From the NCBI GenBank assembly GCA_022574415.1, contig JACZSC010000005.1, positions 1 to 32,609 on the forward strand: a stretch of DNA of 32,609 nucleotides, written 5' to 3'. The notes below the pieces were generated by a model. It did no database searches. It was not told the DNA's origin and was given only the letters and a program-made list of their open reading frames with translations. The stretch is from Nitrososphaerota archaeon (lineage in GTDB: Archaea; Thermoproteota; Nitrososphaeria; Nitrososphaerales; Nitrosopumilaceae). Made by a program: the position numbers and the translations under genes. Below, in pieces: positions 21,805-29,414 of this stretch. How positions within the stretch are numbered: position 1 is the stretch's first letter; every line of letters starts with the position of its first letter.

Positions 21805-21836
21805 AACTTCGTTAGCTCTTAAGTATGCTTAATCCT

Positions 21837-23398: not shown

Positions 23399-23414
23399 AC
23401 ATTTGATACAAACT
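23399..23414 (+). repeat. ACATTTGATACAAACT dispersed repeat, one mismatch
   Basis: This copy differs by one base from those at 2890 and 25235. It lies between the decayed secreted gene and the 3' end of the minus-strand membrane protein gene at 23420. Confidence 0.65.
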
Positions 23415-23419
23415 GTAAA

Positions 23420-23995: not shown

Positions 23996-24252
23996 GGTTG
24001 ATAAAATAAAATTTGAGATAAATGAATCTTAATACTGAAAATTGTTAATTCGTAGCTCGTCCTATACTTAACACAGAAGACAAAAAAAAAATAACTGAAG
24101 GTTTAGACCCGGTTTAAGGTATCAGACAACGAGATAATCTGTAACGGTCTGGGGCTATATGAGTTGGGCCAAAAAAATTCCAGCGAGTCATCACTTCAGT
24201 CATACTTCATTTACAAACACCAATTATTAGAGTAAATTTGTAGACTAATTCT

Positions 24253-24648
24253 ATGACTAAATGGAAAGCACTTAGGGCCACGTTCCCTGATGATGAGTTT
24301 GAGGAAATTAAGAGAATAAGGGACAAGTACGATATCAGTTACAACGAGATTATTCGTAGTGGGGTAAAATTCTACATTGGCTTGACATTGATAAAAGAAT
24401 TGTTAGCCTCTACTGGTATTGCCAAGAGCCTTCAAATACACGGTAAAAAACTAAGTGAGCATCTTACCAGCCGTCAATATCAGTCAAAAATGGAGCAAAA
24501 AATTACGAGTCTAATCAAAGTAGTCGCAGTTGATCTTATTGAGAAGGCTATCGAGTTTGAAGAACGCACTGCTTCCCTAAGAATGGATAGAAAGGTTGGT
24601 AGACCCAAGAAGAAACGCAAAGTTGGAAGACCAACGCAGTACGATTAG
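24253..24648 (+). CDS. ribbon-helix-helix protein with C-terminal AT-hooks
   Basis: The N-terminal 40 residues (WKALRATFPDDEFEEIKRI, then ISYNEIIRSGVKFYI) look like a ribbon-helix-helix or related DNA-binding dimerisation fold. A central helical region of about 65 residues follows. The last 20 residues hold two AT-hook cores, VGRPKKKR and VGRPTQ, joined as RKVGRPKKKRKVGRP. AT-hooks insert into the minor groove of AT-rich DNA. The 131-residue protein is thus probably a DNA-bending or chromatin protein. The next gene, about 107 bases downstream, also codes for AT-hooks. Confidence 0.65.
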   Translation: MTKWKALRATFPDDEFEEIKRIRDKYDISYNEIIRSGVKFYIGLTLIKELLASTGIAKSLQIHGKKLSEHLTSRQYQSKMEQKITSLIKVVAVDLIEKAIEFEERTASLRMDRKVGRPKKKRKVGRPTQYD

Positions 24649-24755
24649 GGGGTAAATTTTTAGACAAATTTCCCTTTGATACAATGCCAAGAACGCTAGC
24701 TACAGGATGAATTGGTCTACAAAATTCTACTAATAATTATACAATTACATCAATA

Positions 24756-25211
24756 ATGGTAAAAATGGATTTTGATGAACAAGGAAGAAGAACCTCAAAC
24801 TATGGCCAGCTTTTAGTGATGTCAGAGCGTGGTAGAGGAAGACCAAAAAAACTTGATACAACAGAGTTAGACCAGATTGCTCTAAGCAAACCAGCTAATG
24901 ATTGTCCACCGTTACAACAAAAACGTAGTAGAGGAAGACCAAGAAAGAATCCAGTTGAAGTAGAGAATCAAGTTCCAAGCAAACCAGCAAGCAACTTTTT
25001 AATCCAGAAACGTGATAGAGAAATAACAAGAAAGAATCCAATTGAATCAGAAATTCAAATAAATCTCAAGGAAAATTATATTTCGGATGTCAAAGAAAAA
25101 TTAAAACTACTTGAATCCATCACTAATGGATATAGGGAAATTGAAAGAATAGATGAAGCGACTCAAAAAAACGTAGAGAAATTATGTGTCATGACACACA
25201 ATTCAAAGTAA
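24756..25211 (+). CDS. AT-hook protein
   Basis: The 151-residue product has two clear AT-hooks, ERGRGRPKK near 29 and KRSRGRPRKNP near 56, and a third, degraded one, KRDREITRKNP near 88, in which the RGRP core has become REIT. Spacing between hooks is about 27-32 residues, and the linkers share 'SKPA' (LSKPANDC, PSKPASNF), so the region arose by internal repeat. The C-terminal 50 residues form a probable helix/coiled coil (VKEKLKLLESITNGYREIERIDE). A TATA-like AATAATTATACA lies about 25 bases before the ATG. Partner of the gene just upstream by context. Confidence 0.65.
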   Translation: MVKMDFDEQGRRTSNYGQLLVMSERGRGRPKKLDTTELDQIALSKPANDCPPLQQKRSRGRPRKNPVEVENQVPSKPASNFLIQKRDREITRKNPIESEIQINLKENYISDVKEKLKLLESITNGYREIERIDEATQKNVEKLCVMTHNSK

Positions 25212-25234: not shown

Positions 25235-25250
25235 ACATTTGATACGAACT
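25235..25250 (+). repeat. ACATTTGATACGAACT dispersed repeat, exact copy
   Basis: Identical to the copy at 2890. It is followed by ATTAACGGGTCC and a small hairpin, AGACC at 25270-25274 with GGTCT at 25285-25289. Another copy begins 90 bases downstream. Confidence 0.75.
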
Positions 25251-25324
25251 ATTAACGGGTCCAAAATAAGACCAACAGTGGTGCGGTCTCAATAGATTCG
25301 GACAATATTGTACTGTATCTTGAA

Positions 25325-25340
25325 CCATTTGATACGAACT
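25325..25340 (+). repeat. CCATTTGATACGAACT dispersed repeat
   Basis: One base differs from the consensus (first A to C). It lies 90 bases after the copy at 25235 and 66 bases before the start of the LamG-like gene. A separate TATA-like ATATTAAAAAACAATA follows at about 25370-25385. Confidence 0.7.
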
Positions 25341-25405
25341 GTTAATGAATCTTGGAATCAATTATGAGAAATATTAAAAAACAATAAGATATCATTAAGC
25401 TAGAT

Positions 25406-26855: not shown

Positions 26856-26897
26856 ACATTTGATAGAAACTGGTTGATCCTGAAAATTCTTAATTCT
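26856..26897 (+). repeat. composite dispersed repeat ahead of purC
   Basis: ACATTTGATAGAAACT (26856-26871, two mismatches) is followed by GGTTGATCCTG and then AAAATTCTTAATTCTTAG (26883-26900). This is the only place where both repeat families lie in this order and close together. The copy at 2890 is followed by the same ATCCTGAAAAT but lacks the ATTCTTA tandem. Confidence 0.6.
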
Positions 26898-29183: not shown

Positions 29184-29414
29184 TTAACGTCGACGACGTT
29201 TCGCACTGCGTTTTCCAGCGGCTCGGCGTTTACTGCCTCTCTTTTTTCCGCCAGTACTTCGTCTTCTTTTCGTTGCGCCTTTTTTAGCTGTAGCACGTCG
29301 TCTCTTTCGTGTTGCAGATTTTTTGCGAGCTGCATCTTTTGCTGCTGCATTTCGCTTACGCGTTCTAGCTGCTTTTTGCGCAGCTGCTTTGCGTCTAGCT
29401 TTTGAAATTGCCAT
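29184..29414 (-). CDS. Lys/Arg/Ala-rich chromatin-like protein
   Basis: The 76-residue product starts MAISKARRKAAAQKAARTRK and is almost wholly Lys, Arg, Ala, with a few Ser, Gly and Thr; it has no acidic residues save one Asp and ends AKRRRR. This is the make-up of histone H1 tails and of the small basic DNA-binding proteins of several archaea. It probably coats DNA or RNA. The base composition is far richer in GC than its surroundings because of its Ala and Arg codons. CTACATAAGAC, centred 26 bases upstream, is a likely TATA box. Longer frames in the other readings are shadows of its repetitive codons. Confidence 0.75.
   Translation of the reverse strand: MAISKARRKAAAQKAARTRKRNAAAKDAARKKSATRKRRRATAKKGATKRRRSTGGKKRGSKRRAAGKRSAKRRRR

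Follow-up and report, generated by a model that had tools for sequence, protein, structure and literature searches.

Two adjacent genes of AT-hook type lie on the forward strand of the window, the whole 32,609-nucleotide stretch analysed here, which is contig C53 of a 1.34-Mb genome estimated to be 89% complete. By its gene content and its relatives (Nitrosopumilus and Nitrosarchaeum), the window belongs to the Nitrosopumilaceae. Gene A (24253 to 24648, + strand) encodes a 131-aa protein with a ribbon-helix-helix (RHH)-like N-terminus and a tandem AT-hook-like tail, and is followed by gene B (24756 to 25211, + strand), which encodes a 151-aa AT-hook repeat protein. Both open reading frames are intact and in frame at these coordinates. 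The pair announced by the first-pass annotation is therefore real: gene B scores above the Pfam AT_hook cut-off, and gene A carries conserved hooks.

The gene A protein ends in RKVGRPKKKRKVGRPTQYD, in which GRP occurs twice, at aa 116-118 within RKVGRPK (hook 1; 24598 to 24606, + strand) and at aa 125-127 within RKVGRPT (hook 2; 24625 to 24633, + strand). Both hooks are kept in homologues, and two GRPs arose by chance in 5 of 200,000 composition shuffles. The hook core is VGRP and not RGRP, and gene A alone reaches 8.6 bits against the AT_hook profile (PF02178), under the curated cut-off of 17.4 bits. At the other end of the protein, a profile search matched RHH_1 (PF01402) in two of nine gene A homologues (best E 0.028), with no match above the cut-off among the nine. 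A structural model built from 18 sequences, which replaced an earlier nine-sequence model of too poor quality (pLDDT 56), predicts helices at residues 13-26 and 30-53 (pLDDT 82-86) and, as a monomer, lacks a strand. Most of its best structure matches are to RHH proteins (CdbA, Arc, CopG, ORF56, and VapB), with HicB also among them, all at E > 1. Of the annotated combination of an RHH-like start with paired hooks, the hooks are conserved in homologues, and the RHH-like N-terminus is supported by the model but falls below every formal cut-off.

Gene B has no domain other than its AT-hooks, and scores 22.9 bits against the AT_hook profile. Like other PF02178 proteins, and unlike gene A with its sub-threshold VGRP cores, it has RGRP cores flanked by basic residues; these lie at aa 27-30 (24834 to 24845, + strand) and aa 59-62 (24930 to 24941, + strand), and two RGRPs appeared in one of 200,000 composition shuffles. 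A third repeat has the core REIT (aa 88-91; 25017 to 25028, + strand). Since this repeat shares 80% DNA identity with repeat 2 across 54 nt, REIT is read as a decayed hook, as the first-pass annotation had it. AT_hook matches (E ≤ 0.05) occur in just 6 of 150 genomes of the family, this one included, so such proteins are uncommon there. Other AT-hook proteins of the family, in L152 and L153 (genus g15), carry KRGRGRPRK as three regular repeats (the L152 protein has 98 aa), in a layout unlike that of gene B. Searches of 200 family genomes and of viral contigs found no homologue of gene B outside its own genome. A sequence search of the PDB returned nothing relevant to either protein, and PHROGs, NCBIfam, PADLOC, and Rfam gave no usable match. 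Gene B, an orphan, has a putative role as an accessory hook-repeat protein, and its product may bind DNA weakly and broadly.

Homologues and upstream dyad of gene A

Gene A is present in 9 of 200 family genomes (its own included) and in 17 of 400 genomes of the class, some copies being partial, and no homologue was found in viral contigs. The hooked tail is kept in homologues down to ~25% identity; conservation in orthologues was thus found for the hooks of gene A, but not for gene B, whose homologue search was empty. The homologues fall into two sets. Close orthologues (53-59% identity), found in Nitrosopumilus and its relatives, are mostly flanked by an SDR gene on one side and a SufT-like gene on the other, and those of Nitrosopumilus have dN of 0.02-0.09 and dS of 0.5-1.3, which indicates purifying selection. 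A contig titled as a Saprospiraceae MAG (L015; JAJCYI010000042.1) contains a Nitrosopumilus-like syntenic stretch that includes gene A, and is probably a misbinned archaeal contig.

The second set comprises seven distant loci, all of which adjoin an AbrB-like gene (so labelled by eye, with no Pfam match) and a gene whose 410-440-aa product was matched to tyrosine recombinases by profile comparison (98.9%); a Zn-ribbon gene, labelled from a sub-threshold Pfam match, lies nearby. Six of these loci also have a tRNA gene ~10-110 bp beyond the integrase. At L074 (7694 to 8113) an in-frame fusion joins the start of the RHH-hook gene to the Zn-ribbon gene, apparently a deletion remnant of the mobile cassette. 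In the island of the window, neither an integrase nor a tRNA gene stands beside gene A, and no homologue of gene A has a gene B-like partner at its locus.

A Zn-ribbon family and a CopG/RHH family are listed with the most frequent families of integrated elements in thaumarchaea (Krupovic et al., 2019; PMC6563490). The CopG/RHH (arCOG08805) and Zn-ribbon (arCOG08677) families of these elements share with the gene A loci the same hosts, XerC/D-type integrases, the Zn-ribbon gene, and tRNA targets (PMC6563490); gene A probably belongs to this CopG/RHH family. Neither the hook tail nor the dyad described below is mentioned for these elements in that paper, in which the term AT-hook has no occurrence.

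Gene A and all seven integrase-linked homologues have a dyad, AATTTGTAKACAAATT, immediately upstream, with 2-3 nt separating its end from the start codon. The dyad scores 14-15 of 15 matches in these eight places, a level reached by none of 400 shuffles of each. Comparison of the window with the mobile copies gives 75-88% identity for the dyad but only 20-40% for the preceding 40 nt. At the same position, MnTg01 (L017) and the distant L078 have a weaker form, while the close Nitrosopumilus orthologues keep the tail but have no dyad upstream. In the window, the operator-like copy AATTTGTAGACTAATT (24235 to 24250, + strand) lies downstream of a TATA-like box and stops 2 nt short of the gene A start codon; a second copy, AATTTTTAGACAAATT (24655 to 24670, + strand), falls just past the gene A stop, and a third, ATTTTGTAGACCAATT (24710 to 24725, - strand), lies 30 nt before gene B, so that the two dyads upstream of gene B are 30 and 85 nt from its start. 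These are the window's only dyads at up to two mismatches. Genome-wide, at up to one mismatch, there are five places, and only at gene A does the dyad precede a gene; the three outside the window are inside genes or in a gap with no gene start beside it. A 30-nt inverted repeat around gene A, considered as a transposon end, resolves into two of the operator-like copies. In the mobile elements, where the RHH-hook gene and the AbrB-like/integrase operon diverge, the dyad occupies the gap between them; its distance to the AbrB-like start is 13-32 nt in five loci, and in the other two the dyad overlaps the called AbrB-like ORF. From its conservation and placement, the dyad is the likely operator at gene A's own promoter.

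A candidate local repressor and its alternatives

The reading we prefer, and regard as quite probable, is that gene A encodes a local repressor, autoregulatory and descended from a mobile element, that would combine RHH-type operator reading with an AT-hook clamp. We infer that the protein adopts an RHH fold and dimerises, and that its N-terminus would read the dyad through the major groove. AATT-type sequence suits hooks of the HMGA type. Because the flanks of the dyad are of this kind, the tandem C-terminal tail would probably clamp them through the minor groove. As the dyad lies between the TATA-like box and the start codon, the bound protein would block initiation of transcription. The homologues in mobile elements would probably also control the integrase operon, given the dyad in the divergent gap, and so act as a lysogeny-type switch. 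In the window, the two dyads between the genes suggest that gene A probably controls gene B, whose product may be an accessory protein of hook repeats with the third decayed. With CopG/Arc-type RHH repressors, archaeal plasmid ORF56 included, gene A would share a predicted strand-helix-helix start, mobile carriage, and likely autoregulation through a dyad at its own promoter; it differs in its longer middle helix, in its conserved tandem tail, and in a sequence that falls below the Pfam cut-off. Counting against the repressor are the sub-threshold scores of both the RHH start and the VGRP cores, the Nitrosopumilus orthologues that have no dyad, the greater distance of the dyads from gene B, and the lack of an integrase beside gene A.

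The first-pass annotation had proposed that the pair shapes chromatin or silences accessory DNA, in which case the two would be nucleoid-associated or xenogeneic-silencing proteins coating AT-rich accessory DNA, with an action like that of H-NS, Lsr2, or MvaT. The AT-hook tails, the AT-rich genome, and the accessory surroundings would suit such proteins, and one of the structure matches of gene A, CdbA of Myxococcus, is an RHH protein that acts as a nucleoid protein (PMC7156744). A nucleoid protein should, however, be present in the majority of relatives and occupy numerous sites, whereas gene A is patchy and linked to integrases, gene B occurs in one of the 200 family genomes and has a hook in decay, and the conserved dyad precedes genes only locally; a chromatin role is therefore disfavoured, and we hold it to be unlikely. 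A second possibility draws on the same tie to integrases: the relatives of gene A could be recombination directionality or architectural factors that aid the integrase, with the dyad as an arm site and not an operator. Integrase genes do adjoin all seven loci, with tRNA attachment genes at six, but the dyad keeps a constant distance of 2-3 nt to the start codon of the gene itself, away from the element's tRNA end, and persists in the window with no integrase beside it, which leaves this proposal quite unlikely. The arrangement of the two genes might also recall an antitoxin/toxin-like pair in which gene A is an autoregulating RHH antitoxin, for RHH antitoxins autoregulate via promoter dyads, gene B follows gene A by 107 bp, and VapB and HicB are found among the structure matches. 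Gene B, however, is a hook-repeat protein that matches no toxin or defence family, and the homologues of gene A have no partner resembling it, so that we consider such a pair highly improbable.

Taken as a whole, the original observation is confirmed and its chromatin reading is not supported; that a local hook-tailed repressor descended from a mobile element is the better account of gene A we judge quite probable. Elsewhere in the window (29184 to 29414, - strand) is a gene for a 76-aa protein that is extremely rich in Lys, Arg, and Ala and resembles a histone H1 tail, with a similar ORF in the same place in G002 (L026, 14021 to 14251); its product would make a likelier nucleoid protein than that of either A or B.

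The accessory island and its core repeats

Genes A and B sit in a 5.1-kb island flanked by a conserved 128-aa gene and by purC, with approximate boundaries at 21829 and 26930. In G002, of the same genus, 45 bp separate purC from the gene that precedes the island, and the island is absent; in G024, also of the genus, a different gene replaces it. The region is therefore accessory, in agreement with the first-pass annotation's description of the surroundings as accessory DNA. It is punctuated by a core repeat, TTTGATACGAACTRTTAA, which occurs in the window at 23402 to 23419 (+ strand; two mismatches), left of the segment that carries A and B, at 25238 to 25255 (+ strand), right of it, and at 25328 to 25345 (+ strand), where a segment for a LamG protein begins; that segment ends at a degenerate copy (26859 to 26876, + strand). 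The directional 26-bp core is also seen at 2716. A second dispersed element, TCCTGAAAATTCTTAATTCTTAG, is present at 21829, 24029, and 26874 and at many other loci, often near a core; often lying a short distance before an ATG, it is treated as a separate, promoter-like element.

Genome-wide, TTTGATACGAACTRTTAA is found 106 times at up to two mismatches, against one for the reversed pattern. The genus is represented by four genomes, with 104, 120, 89, and 51 cores; G009 has 30, and other sampled genomes of the family have at most 4. In the present genome, adjacent cores are co-oriented in 55 of 58 cases, and they avoid genes, with 1 of 79 inside an ORF where 75% of the sequence is coding. Information is confined to ~26 bp, and by inspection the core consists of two inverted 9-bp arms that flank a 6-bp spacer (TTWACATTT GATACG AACTGTTAA). 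In a cassette analysis that covered part of each genome, flanks were shared on the left only in 10 pairs of cores, on the right only in 27, and on both sides in none. Whole inter-core segments are alike in 14 pairs, most of them in different surroundings, both within this genome and across species, and in all five recurring segments inspected identity stops at the core. At one site G002 has a single core, where G040 has, between the same flanks, extra segments and two further cores; two further cases concern a segment with a serpin gene, present in G002 and absent at the matching sites in G024 and G040. Since no second copy of the A/B segment was seen, its own mobility is argued from its position and its absence from relatives.

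These recurring segments with sharp edges, independent flanks, and empty and filled sites lead us to infer a site-specific, integron-like cassette system with a site that would be dif-like and not attC. A role as promoter or terminator does not suffice as the sole explanation of the cores, given that whole inter-core segments recur with sharp edges. For attC, the mean fold z of the cores is 0.14 and -0.16, and an R'' box was found in 1 of 54 against 3.1 expected by chance. No serine resolvase that could serve as the core recombinase was found in the genus; its tyrosine integrases are diverse, with none tied to core arrays, and none was found in G009. A viral contig with an exact match to the core was set aside, the match being inside a large repetitive gene. 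Several paralogues of TFB (transcription factor B) are recognised by sequence likeness (L051, 543 to 1448; L053, 4422 to 5327; L060, 3510 to 4414; window, 943 to 1854); some of them adjoin core repeats, and cassettes may spread general transcription factors.

The pdif modules of Acinetobacter plasmids are Xer/dif modules, in which gene modules lie between short cores with inverted arms and a 6-bp spacer. The core system resembles these in its short core, in the inverted arms about a 6-bp spacer, and in the gene modules between copies, and differs in that neighbouring sites are all direct, that it is archaeal, and that it has 50-120 copies. With integrons, archaeal ones included, it shares single-gene segments, directly oriented sites, new orders, and more than 100 sites per genome (Ghaly et al., 2022; PMC9668308); unlike them, it has a 26-bp core with no attC folding or R'' box, no tyrosine integrase tied to its arrays, a dispersal over many contigs, and cassettes in both gene orientations. 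No core-type cassette system for these archaea turned up in the literature searched. On balance we think it probable that this genus of the Nitrosopumilaceae has an unreported integron-like system with the 26-bp core TTWACATTTGATACGAACTGTTAA, whose cassettes, mostly of single genes, would move chromosome-wide and between species with the AT-hook genes as cargo.

The gene pair places AT-hooks in archaea, with a sequence-reading domain joined to a putative minor-groove clamp, a design that, with its operator-like dyad at a fixed place, probably controls integration in thaumarchaeal mobile elements. More novel are the core repeats, which would allow a one-at-a-time shuffling of genes in ammonia-oxidising archaea outside the known architecture of integrons. 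If confirmed, they would make gene flow in these abundant ammonia-oxidising archaea directly testable.
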